A stretch of DNA of 12,237 nt from Lachnospiraceae bacterium (GTDB taxonomy: Bacteria; Bacillota; Clostridia; Lachnospirales; Lachnospiraceae), in contig JAFOIS010000261.1 in assembly GCA_017420605.1 (NCBI GenBank), positions 1-12,237 on the forward strand, written 5' to 3'. The translations under genes and the position numbers were made by a program. Numbering within the stretch: position 1 is the stretch's first letter; the number at the start of each line of letters is the position of its first letter. Shown in pieces: positions 808 to 12,237 of the stretch. Below the pieces are notes generated by a model that was not told where the DNA came from, ran no database searches, and worked only from the letters and a program-made list of their open reading frames with translations.

Positions 808-3600
808 TTACACCGTGGCGTCCTGCCCGTCCATGGCGGAACGGACCTTTTCCGCGAGAGTCCCGCCGGTCTCGCTGCGCGGCGGCATCTTCTGCGCGAG
901 CACTTCCCGCATGGCCGCTTTCGCGCTGCGGATCTCCAGCAGAAGATCCCCGGCGGAAAGACGCACCGCGCCGGCGCCGAAAATAATGATCTGCTCGACG
1001 GCATCGGAGGTCGCGACGGTCACGCCGTAGTGCCGGATCAGCTCGTGCGCCGCCTTCTCGATGTACTGGTCGGCGGTCTCCGCTTCCCTTGTGTACACGA
1101 CGTCGATGTTGTGATAGCGCATCACCCGCTCCTGCCCGCCGGTTACCTTGTACGCGTCGAAAACGAGGATAAGGGACCGCTTATCGAAGCCCGCGAAATC
1201 CGACAGGATATCCAGAAGACGGTCCCGCGCCGCCTTGAGGTCTTTTTCGGCCAGTGTCGAAAGATCTTCCCACGCATGGATGATGTTGTAGCCGTCCACC
1301 AGCAGATATTCCTTCTCTGCCTTCGGGCGCGGTTTCCGGTAGGACGGCGGAAGAGGCTCCGCTGCCCGGACGGTCTTTTTCTGCCCGCCTTCCCGGCTTT
1401 TTGCGGGGCCGTATGTGCGTTCGAAAATGGCGCGCAGTTCGTCTTCCCCGGCAAGCCGCCGTGCCTCGGCTTCCCGGAAGGAAAGCACTTCTTTCGGCCG
1501 TGTTCCCAGGACCGTTCCGCCGGATGTGCGGAAATGCGCTCCTTCCTCCGCGTTTCCGGCGGTCCCCGCAGCTTCCTCCGCCGGTCTCCAGCCGGAATCG
1601 ACGTGCATCCGCTCCCGGACCTCGTACCAGGGACTGAGTGTGCCGGCGCCGTGCTCGCAGAATACGGAGGCGGACGGCTGGCCGCGGTCAAGTTCCGGAT
1701 CGTATCCCGCGGCGGCGATCACTTCCTCCGGATTATGGCAGGGGCGGGATATGCCGCGCCGGAGGGACATTTTTCCCTCACCCTTCGTATAGGCCGTAAG
1801 GCTCTCCTGATAGCCTTCGATCATGATCACCGGCGCGCTGCCGCGCAGGACGGCCGTCCCGCCCTCTTCATCCGGCAGTTCCATCTTCGCATGCATCTTC
1901 TCAAGATCCTGCATGGCGCGGCCGAGGAGGCCCGAAGGCAGGCGGATCATGAAATCGTCATACGGCTCGAGCAGAACGTTCTCCGCCATCATAAGGCCCT
2001 GCCGCACCGCGCGGTAGGTCGCCTGGCGGAAATCGCCGCCTTCCGTATGCTTTTCATGTGCCTTTCCGGCAATGAGCGTGATCTTGACGTCCGTAAGAAG
2101 CGAACCCGTGAGCACGCCGCGGTGACGCCGCTCCCGAAGATGCGTCAGCACGAGATTCTGGTAATGGCGCGGCAGAAGGTCGGAAGGACATGCCGTATCG
2201 AAGGTAAGGCCGCTCCCTCTCTCCCCCGGTTCCATAAGCAGATGGACTTCCGCGTAATGCCGCAGCGGTTCAAAGTGCCCCACGCCTTCCACCGGACGCG
2301 CGATCGTTTCCTCATACACGACCGAAGGCGTTCCGAAAGAGATCGGAAGACCGAAGCGCCGCATGGCAAGATCCTGCACGATCTCCTTCTGCACCTGTCC
2401 CATCAGGTGCGCGCGGATCTCTTTTCTGCGTTCGTCGTAGACGAAACGCAAGGTAGGCTCCGCCTCCTCCAGCTGCGTAAGGCGGCGGAAGGCGAGGTGC
2501 GGATCTGTTTTCGGCGGAAGAAGGATCTCGAAAGCAAGCGCCGGCGTAAGCACTCCGCCGCCCAGCGTCTTCTCTTCTCCGAGTCCCTGTCCGGAAAAAG
2601 TCTTCGTAAGCCCGGTCACGGCGACCACGTCGCCGGCTTCCGCCTTCGCCAGGGCTGTCCATTTTCCGCCGCTGTACAGGCGGATCCCGGTCGTCTTTTC
2701 CGTAAGAGAAGATACGCTATCTTCTTCGTCCTCCGAGAGCGTCTGCGATACGGAATAGGTCACCGTATCCCGGACGGCAAGCGACCCGCCGGTAAGGCGC
2801 ATCCAGGTCTCCCGCTCGCCCGCCGGATCGCGTGTGATCTTGAAGACGCGCGCGGCAAACCCGCTGCCGTATTTTCTGTCGGGCACGAAACGATCAAGGA
2901 GCGTAAGCAGTTCCTGAACGCCCTCCATACGGAGCGCCGCGCCGAAGAGCACCGGCACGATCTCCCGCCGGCGTATCCCGTCGCATATCACCGCATCCGG
3001 TATGTTCTCTCCTTCCATGACGGAAAGAAGCAGCTCCTCCTGTCCCAGGCACAGCGCGCAGTTTTCCTGTACTTCCGCATCCCCTGCCCCGTTCGTAAAA
3101 TCCACCGCTCCAAAGAAGAGATGTTTCCGGATGTCCGCAAGAAGCGCCGCTTTCTTCTCCGGAAGTCCGTCCGTTACCTGATCTGTCTTATTGACGAAAA
3201 CGACGGCCGGCACATGATAATGCGCAAGGAGGTCGCCCAGGAGGCGCACCTGCGCATTGACGCCGTCGGCGATGCTTATGAGGAGGACGGCGCAGTCCAG
3301 AACGGACAGCACGCGTTCCATTTCCGTACCGAAATCCGCATGTCCCGGCGTATCGAGCAGGGTATAGGTATGGGACGGGGTATGCAGCAGCGCGCTTTTC
3401 GAATAGATCGTGATGCCGCGGTTCCGCTCCATGACGTCGGTATCGAGAAAGGTGTCGCGGCTGTCGACGCGGCCTCTTTTCCGGATCTCGCCGCACGCAA
3501 AAAGAAGGCCCTCGGTGAGGGTCGTCTTGCCCGCGTCCACATGGGCGATGAGGCCGATGCAGCGCATCCTGTTCCTTTCACCCGGCGTTTTGTCCGGCAT
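808..3600 (-). CDS. TetM/EF-G-like ribosomal GTPase fused to a Rae1/YacP-type NYN ribonuclease domain
   Basis: This is a predicted cytoplasmic ribosome-binding factor of 930 residues; TetM itself is about 640. The GTPase motifs are complete: AHVDAGKTT (19-27), RGITI (61-65), DTPGHADF (83-90) with the EF-G-type His, and NKTD (137-140). EF-G-like domains II-V continue to about 655, including a domain IV/V stretch ending LLEPYDDF (543-550). A low-complexity linker follows (about 665-763). Residues 764-905 are a NYN/PIN-like nuclease close to Bacillus YacP/Rae1: LLVDGYN, VFDAYKV, ETADQYIE and ATSDAVEQ carry acidic residues expected at the metal site (about 769, 815, 844, 866). ATG at 3600 has AAGGAG four bases upstream; codon 12 is an alternative start. 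Only 8 bases separate it from ctpA. The equivalent of TetM's tip loop is different (AHEKHTEGGDF), so tetracycline resistance is doubtful. A role in stalled-ribosome handling is inferred. Confidence 0.9.
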   Translation of the reverse strand: MPDKTPGERNRMRCIGLIAHVDAGKTTLTEGLLFACGEIRKRGRVDSRDTFLDTDVMERNRGITIYSKSALLHTPSHTYTLLDTPGHADFGTEMERVLSVLDCAVLLISIADGVNAQVRLLGDLLAHYHVPAVVFVNKTDQVTDGLPEKKAALLADIRKHLFFGAVDFTNGAGDAEVQENCALCLGQEELLLSVMEGENIPDAVICDGIRRREIVPVLFGAALRMEGVQELLTLLDRFVPDRKYGSGFAARVFKITRDPAGERETWMRLTGGSLAVRDTVTYSVSQTLSEDEEDSVSSLTEKTTGIRLYSGGKWTALAKAEAGDVVAVTGLTKTFSGQGLGEEKTLGGGVLTPALAFEILLPPKTDPHLAFRRLTQLEEAEPTLRFVYDERRKEIRAHLMGQVQKEIVQDLAMRRFGLPISFGTPSVVYEETIARPVEGVGHFEPLRHYAEVHLLMEPGERGSGLTFDTACPSDLLPRHYQNLVLTHLRERRHRGVLTGSLLTDVKITLIAGKAHEKHTEGGDFRQATYRAVRQGLMMAENVLLEPYDDFMIRLPSGLLGRAMQDLEKMHAKMELPDEEGGTAVLRGSAPVIMIEGYQESLTAYTKGEGKMSLRRGISRPCHNPEEVIAAAGYDPELDRGQPSASVFCEHGAGTLSPWYEVRERMHVDSGWRPAEEAAGTAGNAEEGAHFRTSGGTVLGTRPKEVLSFREAEARRLAGEDELRAIFERTYGPAKSREGGQKKTVRAAEPLPPSYRKPRPKAEKEYLLVDGYNIIHAWEDLSTLAEKDLKAARDRLLDILSDFAGFDKRSLILVFDAYKVTGGQERVMRYHNIDVVYTREAETADQYIEKAAHELIRHYGVTVATSDAVEQIIIFGAGAVRLSAGDLLLEIRSAKAAMREVLAQKMPPRSETGGTLAEKVRSAMDGQDATV

Positions 3601-3608
3601 ACTTCTCC

Positions 3609-4835
3609 TTACGCAGCCTCCTGCGCCTTCCCGCTCTCTCCGAGAAGATATTCCCGCGCGGCTTCATACTGCGCATCCGTGACCGTTTCTGCCGCATCCG
3701 GGTCATCCGCTGAAGGTGGAAGCGCTGCTTCAATGTCCGGAGCGATCCCGAAGCCGTGGATGCAGCGGCCGTTGGGCGTGTAATAATAGGCTGTAGTATA
3801 CCTGAGGCCCGAGCCGTCGCGGAGCTGCAGAACGCTCTGCACGATGCCCTTGCCGAAGGTTTTTTCGCCGACGATCTTCCCGATGCCGTGATCCTGGATC
3901 GCGCCCGCAAAAAGCTCGGAAGCGCTGGCCGTCTCGCCGTTCACAAGAACTGCGAGCGGGATGCCGATGTCTTCTTTTCCTTCCGACCAGTATTCCTTCC
4001 GCTGCCCGCTCTTTTCTTCGGTATAGGTGACCAGGCGGTCCCCCATCACCGCGGAGGCGATCCGGACCGCGGCGTCGAGCGAGCCGCCGCCGTTATTCCG
4101 AAGATCGATCGCCAGAGCGCGCATTCCCTGCGCCGTAAGATCCTCCATGGCCGCGCTGAACTGGTCCGGCGTATTTTCGCGGAAGGAGGAGATGCGGATA
4201 TAGCCGATCCCGTCTTCCCGCATTTCATAAAAGACCGTATGGGTCACGATCTCCTCGGGCGTCACGGTGACCGCAAACGGCTCCGCCTCCCCTTCCCGTT
4301 CGATCAGGAAAGTGACGGGATCCCCGGCGCGGATCAGCGCCGTCAGCGCGGCAAGGTCCATCTCCCGCACGTCTGTTGCGTTTGCCGAAACGATCCGGTC
4401 AGCCGCAAGAAGCCCGGCCTTCTCGGCGGGCGTACCCGGGTAGACCTCCACGACGCGGATATCCTTCGTCACGGTATCCTGCGACAGCACGGCGCCGATC
4501 CCGAGGTAAAGCCCGCTGCCGGTACGCCGCTGCTGCGCATATTCCTCCGCCGTATAATAGACCGCATAGCGGTCGCCGAGCGCCGCCACCATGCCGGCGT
4601 ATTTCCCGTCGTCCAGCTGCTGTTCCGTAATGTCGCCGAGGTAATTGCGCAGAAGGAGGCGCTTGACGTCCTGCTCTTTGAGGAACGAACCGGAGAACAG
4701 GTAGATGCACAGAAATACCGCGGCGGCAAAAAGCGCCCCGGTCGCAAGTCCCATGACATAAATATAGCGGAAGGTCAGCGGGCGCTCGGCCCGCTCTTCC
4801 GCTTTTTTCTTCCATCTTCTCAACAGATCAAACAT
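3609..4835 (-). CDS. ctpA: S41-family carboxy-terminal processing protease (CtpA/CtpB type)
   Basis: This is a membrane-anchored serine protease acting outside the membrane, in the family of Bacillus CtpA/CtpB. Its 408 residues hold a basic cytoplasmic start, one transmembrane anchor (about 24-48), a short helical region, a PDZ domain (about 107-190, GIGAVL and GTPAEKAGL motifs) and the S41 catalytic domain. DLRNNGGG lies at 244-251, the Ser motif NGETASASE at 299-307 (nucleophile probably Ser304) and FGKGIVQ at 327-333 with the expected catalytic Lys329 and Gln333, so it looks active. The ATG at 4833-4835 lies inside the end of ftsX (8-base overlap) with only a weak upstream ribosome site, which suggests translational coupling. 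Its place next to ftsEX points to envelope or division work such as trimming secreted hydrolases; the substrate is unknown. Confidence 0.93.
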   Translation of the reverse strand: MFDLLRRWKKKAEERAERPLTFRYIYVMGLATGALFAAAVFLCIYLFSGSFLKEQDVKRLLLRNYLGDITEQQLDDGKYAGMVAALGDRYAVYYTAEEYAQQRRTGSGLYLGIGAVLSQDTVTKDIRVVEVYPGTPAEKAGLLAADRIVSANATDVREMDLAALTALIRAGDPVTFLIEREGEAEPFAVTVTPEEIVTHTVFYEMREDGIGYIRISSFRENTPDQFSAAMEDLTAQGMRALAIDLRNNGGGSLDAAVRIASAVMGDRLVTYTEEKSGQRKEYWSEGKEDIGIPLAVLVNGETASASELFAGAIQDHGIGKIVGEKTFGKGIVQSVLQLRDGSGLRYTTAYYYTPNGRCIHGFGIAPDIEAALPPSADDPDAAETVTDAQYEAAREYLLGESGKAQEAA

Positions 4836-5739
4836 CCAGATGCCGCCGTACGGTGATGATACTGCCGATCAGGCCGATTCCGACGCCGAGCGCAAGACCG
4901 ACCGGCATCACATACTGGAATACCTGGTGCATGGTCGGCAGCGATCCGGAGATCGAGGATAGGATCCCGAATTTCGCCAGAAGCTTTCCCATGAGCCAGT
5001 CATAGGCGAAATACAGGATGAGCAGCGGGATCCCCGCGCCGATAAGGCCGAGGATGGCGCCTTCGACGATGAACGGGGTCCGTACAAAGGAGTCCGTGGC
5101 GCCGATCAGCTTCATGATGCCGATCTCCTCCCGCCTTACGGAAATGCCGATGTTGATGGTATTCGCGATCAGGAAGACCGAGATCACAAGGAGCACGAGG
5201 ATGATCGCGATCGAAACATACGTCAGCATGCGGTTAAAACTCTTCAGCGTTTCGATGGCGTCCGCGGACTGGTTTACCTCCCGCACGCCCTCGAGGCCCC
5301 GGATGTATTCGACGACGGCCGCCTGTTCTTCGACGGAGCGCACGCGCACGGTGTAGCTCGCGGACGAGGAAAGCGGGTTGTCCTTCTTGAAGGTCTCCGC
5401 GTATTCCGGATGATCCTTGAAGTATTCTTTCTGGAAGTTCTCCCAGGCTTCCTCCGCCGAGGTGAACTTGATCTCCTTGACTTCCTCCCGGGATGCGATC
5501 GCATCGCCGATCTCTTTGATCTTTTCGTCCTTGATCCCTTCGTCGAAAAGGACGGTGATGCCGACTTCCTCCTCCACGCTCGTCACCAGCGAACGGACGT
5601 TGATGATCACCGCGAAGAAAACGGCAAACAGGAAGATGCAGGCCGTCATCGTCGCGATCGAAGCGAGCGAAAACATGGAGTTCCGGAAAATATTTTTAAT
5701 GCCCTGCCGGACATTGTAAAAAAACGAACTAATACTCAA
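4828..5739 (-). CDS. ftsX: Cell-division ABC transporter permease FtsX
   Basis: FtsX is the membrane subunit of the FtsEX complex, which uses ATP hydrolysis in FtsE to switch on peptidoglycan hydrolases at the division site or side wall. The 303 residues have the standard layout: a short N-terminal cytoplasmic segment, TM1 (about 24-48), a large extracellular domain (about 50-170) that in the family binds the hydrolase or an adaptor, TM2 (172-195), a cytoplasmic loop with REEIGIMKLIGAT (203-215), TM3 (222-247) and TM4 (274-296). The length fits the family. The start is TTG at 5737-5739, overlapping the end of ftsE by 11 bases, with AAGGAG six bases upstream; no ATG sits at this point. No M23 or NlpC-type hydrolase gene follows, and ctpA comes next. 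Confidence 0.95.
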   Translation of the reverse strand: MSISSFFYNVRQGIKNIFRNSMFSLASIATMTACIFLFAVFFAVIINVRSLVTSVEEEVGITVLFDEGIKDEKIKEIGDAIASREEVKEIKFTSAEEAWENFQKEYFKDHPEYAETFKKDNPLSSSASYTVRVRSVEEQAAVVEYIRGLEGVREVNQSADAIETLKSFNRMLTYVSIAIILVLLVISVFLIANTINIGISVRREEIGIMKLIGATDSFVRTPFIVEGAILGLIGAGIPLLILYFAYDWLMGKLLAKFGILSSISGSLPTMHQVFQYVMPVGLALGVGIGLIGSIITVRRHLDV

Positions 5740-6412
5740 TGTACTCTCCTTCCTCTTCGTCGTGGACGATGATGCCGCGCTTCATGGTAATGACACGCTT
5801 CCGGAACTTATTCACGAGTTCGCGGTTATGCGTCACCATCAGCACCGTAGTGCCGCGCTTATTGATGTCGTCCAGAAGATACACGATGTCGAGAGAGTTC
5901 GACGGGTCGAGGTTGCCGGTCGGCTCGTCCGCCAGCAGGATATCCGGCTTGTTCACGATGGCGCGCGCGATCGCGACGCGCTGCTGCTCGCCGCCCGAAA
6001 GCTCGCCGGGAAGCGATTTATACTTTTCCGCAAGACCGACCTGGCGAAGCACTTCCGGCACGCGCTTGCGGATGCTGCGGTTCCAGTAGCCCATTGCCCG
6101 CATGGCGAAGGCCACATTCTCATAGACGTTCCGGTCTTCGAGAAGACGGAAATCCTGGAACACGACGCCGACGCTGCGCCGGTATTTCGGGATCGCGCGG
6201 TGCGTCATCGTGTTGAGGACCTTATCGTTTACGGTGATCACGCCGCTCGTCGGTTCCAGTTCCTTCAGAAGGAGCCTGACAAGCGTCGATTTTCCGGAGC
6301 CGCTGTCGCCGACGACGAAGACGAACTCTCCGCGGTCGATGTGGAAGGTCACCTCATTGACGGCCGGCTGCCCCTTGGAATAGATTTTCGTTACACAATC
6401 GAGATCGATCAT
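5729..6412 (-). CDS. ftsE: Cell-division ATP-binding protein FtsE
   Basis: FtsE is the cytoplasmic ATPase of FtsEX. The 227-residue protein has every ABC motif: Walker A GDSGSGKS (35-42), Q-loop FQDFRLL (85-91), signature LSGGEQQ (138-144), Walker B ILLADEP (158-164), the D-loop TGNLD that follows, and H-loop VTHN (His195). The DFRLL sequence after the Q-loop Gln is typical of FtsE as opposed to other small ABC proteins. ATG at 6410-6412 has AAGGGAGG four bases upstream. It starts 28 bases after the regulator gene and its TAG stop (5729-5731) overlaps the ftsX start. That stop also shows that TAG is a normal terminator in this genome, which matters for the interrupted lipoprotein at 109. Confidence 0.96.
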   Translation of the reverse strand: MIDLDCVTKIYSKGQPAVNEVTFHIDRGEFVFVVGDSGSGKSTLVRLLLKELEPTSGVITVNDKVLNTMTHRAIPKYRRSVGVVFQDFRLLEDRNVYENVAFAMRAMGYWNRSIRKRVPEVLRQVGLAEKYKSLPGELSGGEQQRVAIARAIVNKPDILLADEPTGNLDPSNSLDIVYLLDDINKRGTTVLMVTHNRELVNKFRKRVITMKRGIIVHDEEEGEYIEY

Positions 6413-6440: not shown

Positions 6441-7529
6441 TCAGTATTCCAGCGTCTCCATATACTTCATGTAGCGCACGACCATGAGGGCGATCTTGAA
6501 GGTGATCGCGTCCTCGAAGACCCGGAGGTCAAGGCCGGTGCTCTTCTGCAGCTTGTCCAGCCGGTAGACAAGGGTGTTCCGGTGGATGTACAGCTGCCGG
6601 GACGTCTCCGAAACGTTGAGGTTGTTTTCGAAGAACTTGTTGATCGTTGTAATGGTCGCCTCGTCGAACTCGTCGAGGCTCTTGCTCGCGAAGATCTCCT
6701 TGATGAACATCTTGCACAGCGGGATCGGCAGCTGGTAAATGAGGCGCCCGATGCCGAGCTGGCTGTAGGCGATCACGTTTTCGCCTTCAAAGAAGATCTT
6801 GCCCACGTCGAGGGCCATCCGGGCCTCCTTGTAGGAGCGCGACACCTCCTTGAGTTCGCCGACGATGTTGCCGTACGAGATCCGAAGGCCCCGTCCGCCG
6901 TCCGGATCGATGACGCCGATGAGCTGTCTCGCCGCGCCCTGCAGCGTCTCCGGACCATCCTCCGGCGCAAGCTCCTTCACGATGATCGTGCTCTTTTCAT
7001 CCACCGCCGTGATGAAATCGCTGCGTGACTGGGAGAAGTACTGCCGCACCTCTTCGAGAAGCGGGAATTCCTTCTCCTCGGCCGACTCGAGCACGTATAC
7101 GACGCGCCGTACGTCCGCCTTGAGGTGCAGTTTCTTGGCCCTGCTGTAGATATCCACGAGGAGCAGATTATCAAGCAGGAGATTTTTGATAAAGTTATCT
7201 TTGTCAAAATGCTCTTTGTAGGCAACGAGAAGGTTCTTCACCTGGAAGGCGGTCATTTTGCCGACCACTTCCGCTTCCTCTCCGGTCCCCCTTACGACCA
7301 GAACGTACTCGAGCTGTGAGTCGTCGTATACCTTGAAATACAGGCAGCCGGCGTTCTCCTGCGTCTCGGCTTTCGATTCCGCGAAACTGATGACGTCCGA
7401 CTTACGTACCGGAAGATCCTCACTGGTCTGGGCGATCACCTTGCCGTCCAGTTCTGCGATTCCCAGATCCTGACGCGTAATAGTTTTGATTCCATTCAGG
7501 GTGTCCTGTAAGATCAGGTTCGAAATCAT
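6441..7529 (-). CDS. CdaR/PucR-family transcriptional regulator
   Basis: This is a predicted DNA-binding regulator of 362 residues. The N-terminal part (about 1-130, beginning MISNLILQDTLNGIKTITRQ) resembles the sugar-diacid-recognition region of CdaR. The centre (about 140-265) resembles the GGDEF-like fold of PucR-family proteins and shows no active GGDEF motif. Residues 303-345 form the C-terminal HTH_30 helix-turn-helix: NLNVSETSRQLYIHRNTLVY is the classic signature with recognition helix RNTLVYRL. ATG at 7527-7529 has AAGGAGG five bases upstream. It is first in the cluster behind the promoter at 7628-7656 and lies 28 bases before ftsE, so it may control itself and ftsEX. The ligand is unknown, and a sugar diacid role should not be assumed from the family name alone. 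Confidence 0.88.
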   Translation of the reverse strand: MISNLILQDTLNGIKTITRQDLGIAELDGKVIAQTSEDLPVRKSDVISFAESKAETQENAGCLYFKVYDDSQLEYVLVVRGTGEEAEVVGKMTAFQVKNLLVAYKEHFDKDNFIKNLLLDNLLLVDIYSRAKKLHLKADVRRVVYVLESAEEKEFPLLEEVRQYFSQSRSDFITAVDEKSTIIVKELAPEDGPETLQGAARQLIGVIDPDGGRGLRISYGNIVGELKEVSRSYKEARMALDVGKIFFEGENVIAYSQLGIGRLIYQLPIPLCKMFIKEIFASKSLDEFDEATITTINKFFENNLNVSETSRQLYIHRNTLVYRLDKLQKSTGLDLRVFEDAITFKIALMVVRYMKYMETLEY

Positions 7530-7671: not shown

Positions 7672-9786
7672 TTACACTTCAAACATGAGATCGGCGTACG
7701 TCGGCACCGGCCAGGCAGCCTTTTTCGTGATCCGTTCCGCCATATCGACAGGCCGGCGCAGCTCTTCCATTGCGGGAACGACCGCCTCCCGGCAGAAACG
7801 GGCCATATCTCCGCCCTCCGGCCGGGAAGACGCCTCGTCGATCACTGCCGCAAGGCGTTTCTGCGCCTCCTGCGCCTTTCGGACGTAACCGGTCAGCTTC
7901 GCGAGCCGCTCTTTTACCGTCGATCCGTCCGCGCCCGCTTTATCGAGCGATACGGCACATTCCGCGAGTTCTCCCGCATAAGAGATCATTGCCGGGATCA
8001 GCTGCGTATTGGCCATATGCAGCATCGTGCGGGCTTCGATCAGACTGTCCTTCGCGTAGATCTCATACTTGATCTCGGCACGCGCGCGAAGTTCGGCTGC
8101 CGAAAAGACGCCGAAACGCGCGAACAGTTCCTCCGCCTTTTTCGTGGTGAGCGCGGGGATCGCATCCACCATGGAGGGGATCTCCGGAAGACCGCGGCGC
8201 CGGGCTTCCTCCGCCCACTCGCGGGAATACCCGTTCCCGTTGAAGATGATGCGGCGGTGTTCCGTCACATAGTCCCGGAGCAGCTTATGGAGTGCCTCTT
8301 CAAAGTTCTCCGCCTTCTCCAGAACGTCGCAGGCGTCGGCGAAGGACTCGGCCACGATCGTATTGAGGACCGTGTTCGGGTCCGCGACGGAGTCGCGGGA
8401 TCCGACCATACGGAATTCGAACTTGTTGCCGGTAAAGGCGAACGGCGACGTCCGGTTCCGGTCGGTCGCGTCCTTTGTCAGGTCGCGGAGCACCGAAACG
8501 CCCGTCTTCAGCATCCCGCCTTCACGCGAGTGCTGCGCGTAGCCGGTGGATACGAGCTGATCCAGCACGTCTTCGAGCTGCGTTCCCAGGAAAACGGAAA
8601 TGATCGCCGGCGGCGCTTCGCTCCCGCCCAGGCGCCTGTCGTTGCCGATATCGGAAGCGGAAAGGCGCAGCAGGTCCGCATGGCGGTCAACCGCCCGCAG
8701 CACGCAGGCGAGAACGAGCAGGAACTGCACGTTGTCGTGCGGTGTTTTGCCTGGATCGAAGAGATTGATGCCGTCGTCCGTCATCAGGGACCAGTTATTG
8801 TGCTTGCCGGACCCGTTGACGCCGTCGAACGGTTTCTCGTGCAGCAGGCACCGGAGTCCGTGGCGTGTCGCCACGCGCTTTAAAGTCTGCATGACGACCT
8901 GGTTGTGGTCGACCGCGACGTTCGCTTTTTCATAAACGGCCGCCAGTTCATGCTGCGCCGGCGCGACTTCGTTGTGTTCCGTTTTCGCGGGGACGCCGAG
9001 CCTCCAGAGGATGTCGTCCACGTCCCGCATATAGGCCGCGATCCGGGGGCGGAGCGTTCCGTAATAGTGGTCGTCGAGTTCCTGACCCTTGGGCGGTTCC
9101 GCGCCGAAGAGCGTCCTGCCCGTAAAGATCAGGTCTTCACGTTCCAGGTATTTTTCGCGGTCGATGATGAAATACTCCTGCTCCGGGCCGACGCACGGGA
9201 TCACCTTTTTCGAAGCGGTATTGCCGAAAAGCCGGAGAAGCCGGAGCGTTTCCTTCTCGATGGCTTCCATCGAGCGGAGCAGCGGCGTCTTCTGATCGAG
9301 CGCTTCGCCGGTATAGGAACAGAACGCGGTCGGGATGCAGAGCGTTGCCCCGCCCTCATCATGCCGCACGAACGCCGGCGACGAGCAGTCCCAGATCGTG
9401 TAGCCGCGCGCCTCGAACGTGGCCCTAAGGCCGCCGGACGGGAACGAAGAGGCATCCGGTTCGCCCTTGATGAGCTCGCTGCCGGACAGTTTCATGATCA
9501 CGCGGCCGTCGAAACGGCCCGAGGAAATGAAAGAATCGTGTTTCTCGGCCGTATTGCCCGTAAGCGGCAGGAACCAGTGCGTATAATGCGTCGCGCCGCG
9601 TTCGATCGCCCAGTTCTTCATTTCCTCGGCGATCTGGTCCGCGGTATCGAGGTCAAGCACCTCCCCGAGATCGATGGTCCTAAGAAGCCGCCGGTACGTT
9701 TCCTTCGGCAGACGCTCGCGCATCACGCTGTCGCTGAACACGTCCTCACCGAAAATATCCGCGATCCGTTTTCCCGTAAATCCCAT
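7672..9786 (-). CDS. glnN: Type III glutamine synthetase GlnN
   Basis: GlnN makes glutamine from glutamate, ammonia and ATP in the cytoplasm and is the large (about 700-730 residue) glutamine synthetase of many anaerobes. The 704 residues include the N-terminal type III region (THWFLPLTG at 69-77; KLSGSELIKGEPDASSFPSG at 99-118) and the catalytic barrel: GPEQEYF (200-206) and KTEHNEVAPAQHE (268-280) with metal-binding acidic residues, and HEKPFDGVNGSGKHNNWS (316-333) at the glutamate and ATP sites. The C-terminal helical region is intact, so the enzyme looks functional. ATG at 9784-9786 has GGAGG five bases upstream. The gene is preceded by two small hairpins (9797-9829) that may affect expression. 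No PII or ANTAR regulator gene is next to it, and dagK lies 72 bases upstream. Confidence 0.96.
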   Translation of the reverse strand: MGFTGKRIADIFGEDVFSDSVMRERLPKETYRRLLRTIDLGEVLDLDTADQIAEEMKNWAIERGATHYTHWFLPLTGNTAEKHDSFISSGRFDGRVIMKLSGSELIKGEPDASSFPSGGLRATFEARGYTIWDCSSPAFVRHDEGGATLCIPTAFCSYTGEALDQKTPLLRSMEAIEKETLRLLRLFGNTASKKVIPCVGPEQEYFIIDREKYLEREDLIFTGRTLFGAEPPKGQELDDHYYGTLRPRIAAYMRDVDDILWRLGVPAKTEHNEVAPAQHELAAVYEKANVAVDHNQVVMQTLKRVATRHGLRCLLHEKPFDGVNGSGKHNNWSLMTDDGINLFDPGKTPHDNVQFLLVLACVLRAVDRHADLLRLSASDIGNDRRLGGSEAPPAIISVFLGTQLEDVLDQLVSTGYAQHSREGGMLKTGVSVLRDLTKDATDRNRTSPFAFTGNKFEFRMVGSRDSVADPNTVLNTIVAESFADACDVLEKAENFEEALHKLLRDYVTEHRRIIFNGNGYSREWAEEARRRGLPEIPSMVDAIPALTTKKAEELFARFGVFSAAELRARAEIKYEIYAKDSLIEARTMLHMANTQLIPAMISYAGELAECAVSLDKAGADGSTVKERLAKLTGYVRKAQEAQKRLAAVIDEASSRPEGGDMARFCREAVVPAMEELRRPVDMAERITKKAAWPVPTYADLMFEV

Positions 9787-9858: not shown

Positions 9859-10746
9859 TCAGCAGTACAGCTGCAGCCCGTACTGCAGATTCTCGATCAC
9901 GACGTTCTGGTGGTTTCCGCCGAACTCCCCGTCCAGCGTCCACGGCACGTTGTCCTCTCCCGCGATCTCGATCCGGTCCGTCTTGAACACCTCAAGCAGC
10001 GGGATGTTCTCGTTTCCCGCGATCAGCGCGGCCGCCGCGTCCGAAAGATCCGCGAGGCCGTTTTTCGGCGCTTTGACGAGCGTCACTTCAAAGAGCCCGT
10101 CGGAAAGCGCCACGTCACGCCCGGTGATGTTTTTGAAGCCGCCTACGGAGATGGAATTCGTGATCATCCCGAGAATATAATCGTCCGTCTTCGTCTCCCC
10201 GTTCGCGTGGATCGTCATCCGGTAGGTGCGGAGCTCGCCGAGCGACTTGACGCCGCTGATCAGATATGCCGCGTGCCCGAACAGGTTCTTGAGCGTCTGG
10301 TCCGTTTCATAGGCGACGTTGGTGAACAGCCCGAAAGCGGCCACATATACGAAATAATCCGAGCCGAAGCGTCCGAGGTCGACGCGGGCGAGATGCTTCG
10401 AAAGGATATTCTTCGCGGCCTGGACGGGGTTTTGCGGGATCCCGAGCGAAGACGCGAAATCATTGGTGGAGCCGACGGGCAGATACCCGATCGGCAGATC
10501 CGGATGCGACTCCCGAAGTCCCCCTACGATCTCATTCAGCGTACCGTCGCCGCCGGCCGCGACCACAAGGTCGAAGTCGTCGCCGATCCCGCGCGCATAT
10601 TCTCTACCGTCCCCTCTCTCCCCGGTCGGAAATACTTCCACCCGGTAACCGGCGTCGATGAAGACCCGGAAGATCTCCGTCAGGTGCGATGTATAGCCGG
10701 TCTTTCCGGCACGGGGATTGTAGATGAACAACAGCTTTTTTTCCAT
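9859..10746 (-). CDS. Diacylglycerol kinase / YegS-type lipid kinase
   Basis: This is a predicted soluble or membrane-associated kinase that phosphorylates diacylglycerol or a related lipid with ATP, as DgkB does when recycling lipid left over from lipoteichoic acid synthesis. The 295 residues show the DAGK catalytic fold: LLFIYNPRAGK (5-15), GGDGTLNE (65-72) at the nucleotide site, LPVGSTNDFA (89-98), and LDGE (271-274) with the acidic residue expected near the active site. The frame is open further up to a TTG at 10788, but the ATG at 10744-10746 has GGAGG five bases upstream and begins the conserved domain almost at once, so it is chosen. Stop is TGA at 9859-9861. It has its own promoter at 10861-10889. 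The exact lipid substrate cannot be read from the sequence. Confidence 0.92.
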   Translation of the reverse strand: MEKKLLFIYNPRAGKTGYTSHLTEIFRVFIDAGYRVEVFPTGERGDGREYARGIGDDFDLVVAAGGDGTLNEIVGGLRESHPDLPIGYLPVGSTNDFASSLGIPQNPVQAAKNILSKHLARVDLGRFGSDYFVYVAAFGLFTNVAYETDQTLKNLFGHAAYLISGVKSLGELRTYRMTIHANGETKTDDYILGMITNSISVGGFKNITGRDVALSDGLFEVTLVKAPKNGLADLSDAAAALIAGNENIPLLEVFKTDRIEIAGEDNVPWTLDGEFGGNHQNVVIENLQYGLQLYC

Positions 10747-10860
10747 GGTTTCCTCCAAAGAAGACACTGCTCCTGTTGCCCCCTCCAAGCAGTTCTATTA
10801 TGATAGTTGAACAGAAGCGGGCTTTCATTATTGTAAAAACTGCCCATCTTCCTATTTTTT

Positions 10861-11018: not shown

Positions 11019-12237
11019 TTATATGCTGTCAGACGTGCAGGATACGTCATCGCCGGACCCGATGCTGCCGCCGTCACCGGTACTGCCGTCTTCCGCGTGC
11101 TCCGCCAGATATTCCGCGGCGTCGTCCGGCACTTCGTCGATGCTGCCGTCCACCTGGACGTTGAGCGGCGGCTTCTTGAAGAGGATATCGTACATCACCG
11201 GAATAATGAAGAGGGTCATGAGCGTCGCGTAAAGCAGGCCCGCCGCGATGACGATCGCCATGCCGGACCCGAGCTGGCTGCCCATGCCTTTCCCGAAAAT
11301 GAGCTGGCCCATCGCGAGGATCGTCGTAAGAGCCGTCATGAGGATCGGCCGCATGCGCGTCTTGCCGGTCGCGACCAGCGCCTCATGCCTGTCAAGGCCG
11401 CCGATCCGCAGCTGGTTGGTGTAGTCGACAAACACGATACCGTTGTTGACGACGGTCCCCATGAGGATTAGGAACCCCATAAGCGACAGCATGGAGAGCT
11501 GCTGCCCTGCAAAAATGAGGCCGAGCATGCCGCCCGTGAAGGCCAGCGGTACGGTAAAGAGAATAATGAACGGGCTTAAGAGACTCTGGAACTGCGCGAC
11601 CATGACAAGATACACGAAAAGGAGGCCGAGCGCCATCAGACCGCCCATCTGCAGGAGCATCTCATTGACCATGGTGCTCTCTCCGGCCAGTTCTACCGTG
11701 TATCCGTTCGGAAGCGTCCTGTTGTAGGCGGCCAGTTTGTCTGTCAGCTGCCGCGCAAGGAGAGTCGTGTTGTATCCCGGCTGCGTTTCCGCGGTCACCG
11801 TGACGTACCGGGTCTGGTTCTTCCGGCTGATGCTGGTAAGGCCTACGGTCTCTTCGACCGTCGCGAAGTCCCGCAGAGTATAACCTTCGCTCTCCGCCGT
11901 CTCTTCGCTGCCATCCTCTTCCGCGCCGTCTTTATTTTCCCCGTCCGTATCTTCCGCGGCTTCTTCGTTTTCCGTATCCTCCTCCGTATCCGTTCCGCCG
12001 AAGCCGAAGAGTGCCGCCATGTCTCCCATATCTCCCGTGCCGGAAGAGCCGGTCATACCTTCCATGCCGCTCATTCCGGCCATTCCGCCCATCGCGGAAG
12101 CATCCATGCCGGAGGATCCGCCCATGGCAGCCATCATCGACGAAGCGCCGCCGCTGTAGCCGGAGGCCGGGATCTCAAGATCAAGGAGGTTTTCTTTCGT
12201 GAGCGGATCGGTCTCGTCACGGATGACGACGTCCATG
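11019..12237 (-). CDS. RND (AcrB/HAE1-type) efflux permease, C-terminal part; 5' end outside the window
   Basis: This is the C-terminal third or so of a proton-driven RND-superfamily permease in the cytoplasmic membrane, cut by the window edge; the Met at 12236 is probably internal. From the N-terminal side: a Met/Gly/Ser-rich stretch (codons 12137-12018), an acidic stretch (about 11996-11883), a porter-domain segment (LRDFATVEETVGLTSISRKN and YVTVTAE motifs), then five membrane helices matching TM8-TM12, including TVPLAFTGGMLGLIFAG and GFLILMGTVVNNGIVFVDYT, both typical of HAE1-type permeases. A short acidic, Gly/Ser-rich cytoplasmic tail ends at TAA (11019-11021). The family exports drugs, metals or lipids, and the substrate cannot be told here. 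A membrane-fusion protein partner would be expected upstream, outside the window. The Met-rich insert is not part of ordinary AcrB. Confidence 0.9.
   Translation of the reverse strand, partial: MDVVIRDETDPLTKENLLDLEIPASGYSGGASSMMAAMGGSSGMDASAMGGMAGMSGMEGMTGSSGTGDMGDMAALFGFGGTDTEEDTENEEAAEDTDGENKDGAEEDGSEETAESEGYTLRDFATVEETVGLTSISRKNQTRYVTVTAETQPGYNTTLLARQLTDKLAAYNRTLPNGYTVELAGESTMVNEMLLQMGGLMALGLLFVYLVMVAQFQSLLSPFIILFTVPLAFTGGMLGLIFAGQQLSMLSLMGFLILMGTVVNNGIVFVDYTNQLRIGGLDRHEALVATGKTRMRPILMTALTTILAMGQLIFGKGMGSQLGSGMAIVIAAGLLYATLMTLFIIPVMYDILFKKPPLNVQVDGSIDEVPDDAAEYLAEHAEDGSTGDGGSIGSGDDVSCTSDSI
12018..12137 (-). repeat. Met/Gly/Ser-rich low-complexity segment within the RND permease
   Basis: Forty codons hold eleven methionines, mostly three residues apart as GM/SM/GM units (for example GMAGMSGMEGMTG), and no Cys or His. 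It lies in the extracytoplasmic porter part just before the FATVEE motif and runs into an acidic stretch with 19 Asp/Glu in 37 residues. MxxM spacing is used by copper(I)- and silver-binding proteins, but a flexible linker is also possible. Confidence 0.85.

Follow-up and report, generated by a model that had tools for sequence, protein, structure and literature searches.

In Bacillus subtilis, Rae1 (YacP) is a small stand-alone protein whose gene is co-transcribed with yacO/rlmB, and two papers describe it as an endonuclease that cuts mRNA in the ribosomal A site (PMC12320835, PMC6613710). A Tet-like protein joined to a YacP-like NYN domain was reported in ten Clostridiales species, with a resistance mechanism suggested for it (Atkinson et al. 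2015, PMC4342817). The window analyzed here is a 12,237-nucleotide stretch of a Lachnospiraceae genome (assembly GCA_017420605.1, contig JAFOIS010000261.1), and the gene at 808..3600 on its minus strand encodes a 930-aa fusion of a translational GTPase, a linker and a Rae1-type NYN domain. This architecture has been known since 2015 (PMC4342817), which contradicts the suggestion of an initial annotation, made from the letters alone, that the nuclease half had gone undiscussed. We find that the fusion is near-core in Lachnospiraceae, and the best reading of the data is that it replaces stand-alone rae1, the window protein being the Rae1 of its lineage. We lean towards the view that a chromosomal EF-G/Tet-like GTPase acquired, apparently once, a C-terminal NYN enzyme, which elsewhere in the phylum is mostly encoded by a gene of its own, usually adjoining rlmB, and that the fusion took over the job of this enzyme as a GTPase-guided Rae1 cutting A-site mRNA.

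The frame at 808..3600 opens with an ATG and runs for 930 codons without an internal stop. A Shine-Dalgarno-like AAGGAGA (3604..3610, minus strand) shares bases with the stop codon that ends the S41 protease gene upstream, and four bases separate the end of AAGGAG from the ATG, although the exact start is uncertain because a further in-frame ATG lies at residue 12. Pfam matches to GTP_EFTU, EFG_IV, EFG_C and NYN_YacP were each above the curated cut-off. From the N-terminus, with all coordinates on the minus strand, the protein consists of a G domain with intact G1-G5 motifs (residues 11-240; 2881..3570), an EF-G-type domain IV (residues 425-539; 1984..2328), an EF-G-type domain V (residues 542-614; 1759..1977), a C-terminal extension of the GTPase (residues 615-672; 1585..1758), a variable linker (residues 673-764; 1309..1584) and the Rae1-type NYN_YacP domain (Pfam residues 766-923; 832..1305). 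The extension is common to unfused sister GTPases up to about residue 668. As aligned, the two tip loops of domain IV carry the signatures GHFEPLRHY (residues 439-455; 2236..2286) and KHTEGGDFR (residues 512-526; 2023..2067), the latter corresponding to YSPVSTPADFR in Tet. An AlphaFold model built with 48 sequences (mean predicted local distance difference test score 80.8, predicted template modelling score 0.61) gave high confidence in both the GTPase and the NYN domain, and low confidence over residues 677-757.

Within the linker, a helix is predicted at residues 708-730 (1411..1479, model confidence about 45-60), with a conserved E-x3-IFERTYG-like motif at residues 721-731. The motif was found in 38 of 40 rows by a loose pattern and was discernible in the remaining two; one sub-lineage (L042, L043, L045, L047 and L098) has an RTYYANQGKK-type motif in place of FERTYGPIK. 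Linker length ranged from 61 to 117 residues over the 40 rows and is about 90 in the window protein. In a 40-row conservation table, which omits the locus L108, the mean share of the most frequent letter was 0.64 for the NYN domain, 0.58-0.79 for the parts of the GTPase and 0.35 for the linker. The NYN domain and the GTPase are therefore conserved about equally, and the linker far less.

At the domain level, the C-terminal part matched the NYN_YacP profile with 160.1 bits (cut-off 24.6), and its nearest solved structure by sequence was B. subtilis YacP (5mq8/5mq9, E ~3e-25). The alignment with B. subtilis Rae1 spans 134 residues and takes in every catalytic acid (D769, D815, D844, E848 and D866). 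D769, D815, D844 and D866 were invariant in 54/54 fused NYN rows and were also kept in each stand-alone NYN row having a letter there; E848 was kept in 53 of the 54 fused rows. By sequence, the NYN half is thus a member of the Rae1/YacP family, and the initial annotation was right both that its motifs follow Bacillus YacP/Rae1 and in the acids that it singled out near 769, 815, 844 and 866. That annotation had also asked whether the genome carries a separate rae1: a profile search of the source genome (93.9% complete) gave no NYN_YacP match outside the fusion.

Both the GTPase and the NYN domain were present in 120/120 homologues listed (of at least 7998 scored), which together with the open reading frame (ORF) and the Pfam matches bears out the initial reading of the two as one protein. 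Genomes were sampled at the ranks of family, class and phylum. Categories in the family and class samples, which overlap in at least G000, G151 and G173, were counted by hand, and fusion status was inferred from frame length except for 66 frames that were inspected as sequence. The family sample comprised 200 genomes from 199 genera; 21 had no NYN_YacP match and 179 had one, made up of 161 fusions in frames of 841-1182 aa, one short fused frame (G115), 10 stand-alone genes and 7 broken or contig-edge cases (G078, G190, G033, G119, G081, G192 and G145). Among the 166 genomes of the class sample were 57 fusions (frames of at least 789 aa), 52 stand-alone genes, three broken cases (G353, G242 and G260) and 54 genomes with no match. 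At phylum level, 90 of 159 genomes had an NYN match, 12 of these in frames of at least 877 aa; G394, with a weak sub-cut-off match in a 714-aa frame, was not counted as fused. The GTPase was present in 66/66 NYN frames of at least 789 aa inspected as sequence, which were drawn from several searches, and a DNA scan gave named relatives that were mostly Lachnospiraceae. An assembly error, which the initial annotation had raised as an objection, or a chance fusion is ruled out by the architecture of the homologues, the family sample (161/200) and class sample, the 66 long frames and the occurrence of the fusion in single-contig genomes.

Two fused frames in the family are unusual in build. In G115 (contig C43:27872-29809), a 690-aa frame contains the NYN domain and the part of the GTPase that ends near residue 426, separated by only some 106 aa. 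This spacing may reflect the absence of domains IV-V or a faulty assembly. In L152 (G110, contig C47), the NYN match of a 1095-aa fusion frame falls into two stretches, which suggests an insertion within the NYN domain. The fusion was also encoded by 2 of the 100 phage records with a match, L109 (MT835563) and MT835514, both human faecal 'Bacteriophage sp.' records without annotation. Two of the six ORFs neighboring the fusion in L109 have peptidoglycan-binding domains and four have no Pfam match, and because of these neighbors L109 could be host DNA.

No sampled genome of the family or class was found to carry an intact fusion together with a clear stand-alone NYN gene; G030 is an unsure case, since its fusion is accompanied by an NYN fragment at the edge of a contig. 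Stand-alone NYN genes were present in 10 of the 31 fusion-less genomes of the family and in 52 of 106 in the class. Fisher's exact test of fusion versus stand-alone NYN gave 3e-9 for the family (3e-8 if G030 is counted as both) and 8e-13 for the class, with the broken cases and G115 left out; these values are descriptive because the sampled genomes are related. The genomic context differs as well. The RlmB gene adjoined 28 of 33 stand-alone NYN genes and was found beside the fusion at 0/74 loci with an NYN domain in a frame longer than 400 aa, some of which are two views of one gene; flanks of at least 1 kb on both sides were available for 56 of the 66 long frames. In 11/11 fusion genomes tested, the RlmB gene was kept at another locus.

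The 10 family genomes with a stand-alone NYN gene were considered separately. Eight of them have a separate GTPase of the fusion's GTPase family, seven of these GTPases belonging to the unfused sister clade and the eighth, L031, lying outside both clades described below, and RlmB adjoins the NYN gene in 8 of the 10. Within the family, sister GTPases are associated with stand-alone NYN (8/10 genomes, versus 0/21 without NYN). Secondary splitting of a fusion in these genomes was not supported, although their NYN domains are 59-69% identical to fused NYNs and 53-61% identical to other stand-alone ones, which runs counter to that conclusion.

A tree of the GTPase was made from 77 rows of chosen loci with a quick method and Shimodaira-Hasegawa-like approximate likelihood ratio (SH-aLRT) support. 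The Tet-side rows formed one group (93) and the GTPase family of the fusion another (97), with Tet as its sister. Within the latter family, one clade is unfused (96), and a second unites 40 fused rows with a Ligilactobacillus plasmid protein that is not fused (99). Thus 40 of the 41 fused rows lie in one clade, the exception being L108, a fusion on a very long branch that falls outside both clades, as does the unfused L031. For the NYN domain, a constraint uniting all stand-alone NYNs, and therefore also holding all fused NYNs together, was not rejected by the approximately unbiased (AU) test (p-AU 0.717 without the window row and 0.777 with it); L153, L147 and L108 were omitted from these tests, and the NYN tree leaves out duplicates and some close relatives. 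The trees fit a single fusion event, which apparently gave rise to the present set. L108 (3674-6460, in a two-contig genome) is extremely diverged, with 25% identity and a branch of 5.04; it retains the G motifs and most catalytic acids, its domain IV signature is gone and E848 is substituted. The plasmid protein (L111:5968-7902, Ligilactobacillus salivarius) lacks an NYN domain, is annotated as TetM-family and adjoins a gene for ribosomal protein S14.

TetM and EF-G insert domain IV into the ribosomal A site, and Rae1 has been modelled in the same site. Ribosome binding, GTP hydrolysis and mRNA cleavage are the functions predicted for the fusion. By this GTPase-guided reading, the GTP-bound GTPase would bind a paused ribosome at its factor site while the A site is vacant. 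Domain IV, whose loops are specific to the family and differ from those of Tet, would, as its fold suggests, enter the decoding center, where the GTPase might find and check, or clear, the A site. After GTP hydrolysis, domain IV would leave and the linker-tethered NYN domain would enter the freed A site and cut the mRNA, by analogy with Rae1; the cut mRNA would then be degraded and the ribosome rescued. In principle, a linker of 61-117 residues is long enough for such a hand-over. The initial annotation had proposed delivery of the nuclease to stalled or tetracycline-blocked ribosomes; the ribosome-delivered nuclease survives as the best reading, while a tetracycline role is not supported, given the score cut-offs, the loops and the near-core distribution. 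A search for tmRNA in the source genome, a draft that is 93.9% complete, gave no match above the cut-off.

Several observations weigh against this proposal. Domain IV and the NYN domain compete for one site and therefore probably act in turn, so that the proposal has to suppose a hand-over. Sister GTPases without an NYN domain exist, and the GTPase therefore has a role of its own; in the class sample they occur in 5/52 genomes with stand-alone NYN and in 4/54 without any NYN, that is, with no association. The NYN domain is not essential to the family, since it is absent from 21/200 genomes, and the NYN tree, with 137 columns, is poorly resolved. More tentatively, we suggest that the GTPase may be a class of translation factor in its own right, distinct from both EF-G and Tet and marked by a particular decoding-center signature (GHFEPLRHY, KHTEGGDF); it would time and guide Rae1 cleavage as domain IV hands the A site over to the nuclease on its tether.

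The GTPase half bears directly on what Atkinson et al. 2015 suggested, namely that such proteins are ribosomal protection proteins for tetracycline resistance, with the nuclease half adding a resistance mechanism. With G1-G5 motifs and domains IV and V, it is a translational GTPase of the EF-G/EF2-like kind. TetO and TetM headed a sequence search of the whole protein against solved structures, in the tree Tet is the group closest to it (93), and 2 of the 120 listed homologues bear the names TetM/TetW/TetO/TetS; a structural comparison of residues 6-646 matched EF-G, EF-2, TetM and their kin, and one copy has been annotated as 'translation factor GTPase family protein'. Nevertheless, the fusion scored 358.2 bits on the NCBIfam tet_protect equivalog model (cut-off 775), less than the 373 bits of the source genome's own EF-G, and its relatives likewise fell below the cut-off. 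An annotated tet(M) (879.8) and two other Tet-side rows, L039 (819.9) and L085 (1000.8), passed; L084 (606) and L086 (561), two odd Tet-side rows, also missed it. On the EF-G equivalog model (cut-off 659.4), the fusion scored 232.8 bits and the genome's own EF-G 1127.6. The tip loops of Tet domain IV dislodge tetracycline, according to PMC4342817. The SPVSTP.DF loop of Tet was found in 0/60 fused, split and solo rows of the fusion's GTPase family and is present in 11 of 14 Tet-side rows. The GHFEPLRHY and KHTEGGDF loops, with small variations, occur in 40/41 fused and 19/19 unfused rows, and a loose loop III pattern of the family fits 2/14 Tet-side rows as well. L038, L084 and L086 represent a third kind of Tet-side GTPase, with YTMPKPCWA and an HT/HS-type loop III. 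Among 1320 plasmid records with a match, two cover 80% of the query, the one identified being a 518-kb Monoglobus replicon, and a mobile resistance gene is unlikely from distribution and motifs. Because it is near-core in the family, scores below the Tet cut-off and below its own EF-G, and lacks the Tet loops, the fusion does not look like a genuine tetracycline-resistance gene, and we regard this explanation as improbable. Our literature search found no test of tetracycline resistance by NYN-fused proteins.

Alternatively, the GTPase could carry the NYN domain to ribosomal particles for the trimming of stable RNA. NYN domains were originally proposed for rRNA/tRNA maturation (PMC4342817), and the product of rlmB, the gene usually next to a rae1 that stands alone, is a homologue of a 23S methyltransferase. 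However, B. subtilis Rae1, whose catalytic motifs the fusion shares, is described as cutting mRNA in the A site. GTPases of the EF-G type work on complete 70S ribosomes. A maturation factor is therefore, in our judgment, a poor candidate. Less easily set aside, if still doubtful, is a passive fusion, in which an ordinary Rae1 and a separate auxiliary translation factor are merely kept together, or co-expressed, in one chain. The long and poorly conserved linker is what such a fusion would be expected to have; NYN-less sister GTPases exist, 47/52 class genomes with stand-alone NYN have no GTPase partner, and the unfused L111 sits within the fused clade. On the other side, the sampled Clostridia show no fused-clade GTPase without NYN, a short linker motif is conserved (38/40 by the loose pattern), and the fusion persists in 161/200 family genomes.

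If the GTPase-guided reading holds, much of a large bacterial family would possess a single protein able to enter the ribosome with GTP and afterwards cut the mRNA; Rae1 would gain a recruiting partner, and the timing of A-site cleavage would become testable. 'Tetracycline resistance' entries in such genomes would probably be housekeeping genes, which matters for counts of resistance genes in microbiomes. Were the GTPase indeed a class of its own, the Tet ribosomal protection proteins would have as their sister group a housekeeping factor for ribosome surveillance.

The remaining genes of the window are, by Pfam, all on the minus strand: a small lamin-tail-domain protein with a lipoprotein-like start (109-660), the S41/PDZ protease (3609-4835), FtsX (4828-5739), an ABC ATPase that is likely FtsE (5729-6412), a PucR-type regulator (6441-7529), a type III glutamine synthetase (7672-9786), a diacylglycerol kinase-like protein (9859-10788) and the end of an RND transporter (11019-12236). 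The neighbors of the fusion vary among the related loci scanned, and Dus adjoins two of them.

Within a limited coverage of the literature, which did not include Condon et al. 2018 on the distribution of Rae1, we found nothing in print on how widely the fusion is spread as a near-core gene, on its replacement of rae1, on a single origin or on the signature of the loops. The protein of the window shares its domain combination with the set of Atkinson et al. 2015 and belongs to it by architecture. There the set was labelled Tet and resistance was suggested, whereas here the fusion is near-core, lacks the Tet loops and replaces rae1. Tet(M)/Tet(O), its sister group in the tree, have the EF-G-like domain order in common with the fusion, but are only about 29-31% identical over residues 8-609, have other domain IV loops and lack an NYN domain. 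Closer are the unfused GTPases of about 650 aa from other Clostridia, for which we found no established name. They share the domain IV signature (19/19 rows, one of them inside the fused clade) and the C-terminal extension, but have neither linker nor NYN domain and are 36-42% identical to the window protein. G303 has two copies of this sister GTPase (L072 and L073), and the two 'Tet' copies of Clostridium acetobutylicum mentioned in Margus 2007 (PMC1780047) may be the same thing. With B. subtilis Rae1/YacP, finally, the fusion has the NYN_YacP domain and the catalytic acids in common; the Bacillus enzyme stands alone beside rlmB, whereas the NYN of the fusion is encoded at a different locus, as the last domain of a GTPase.

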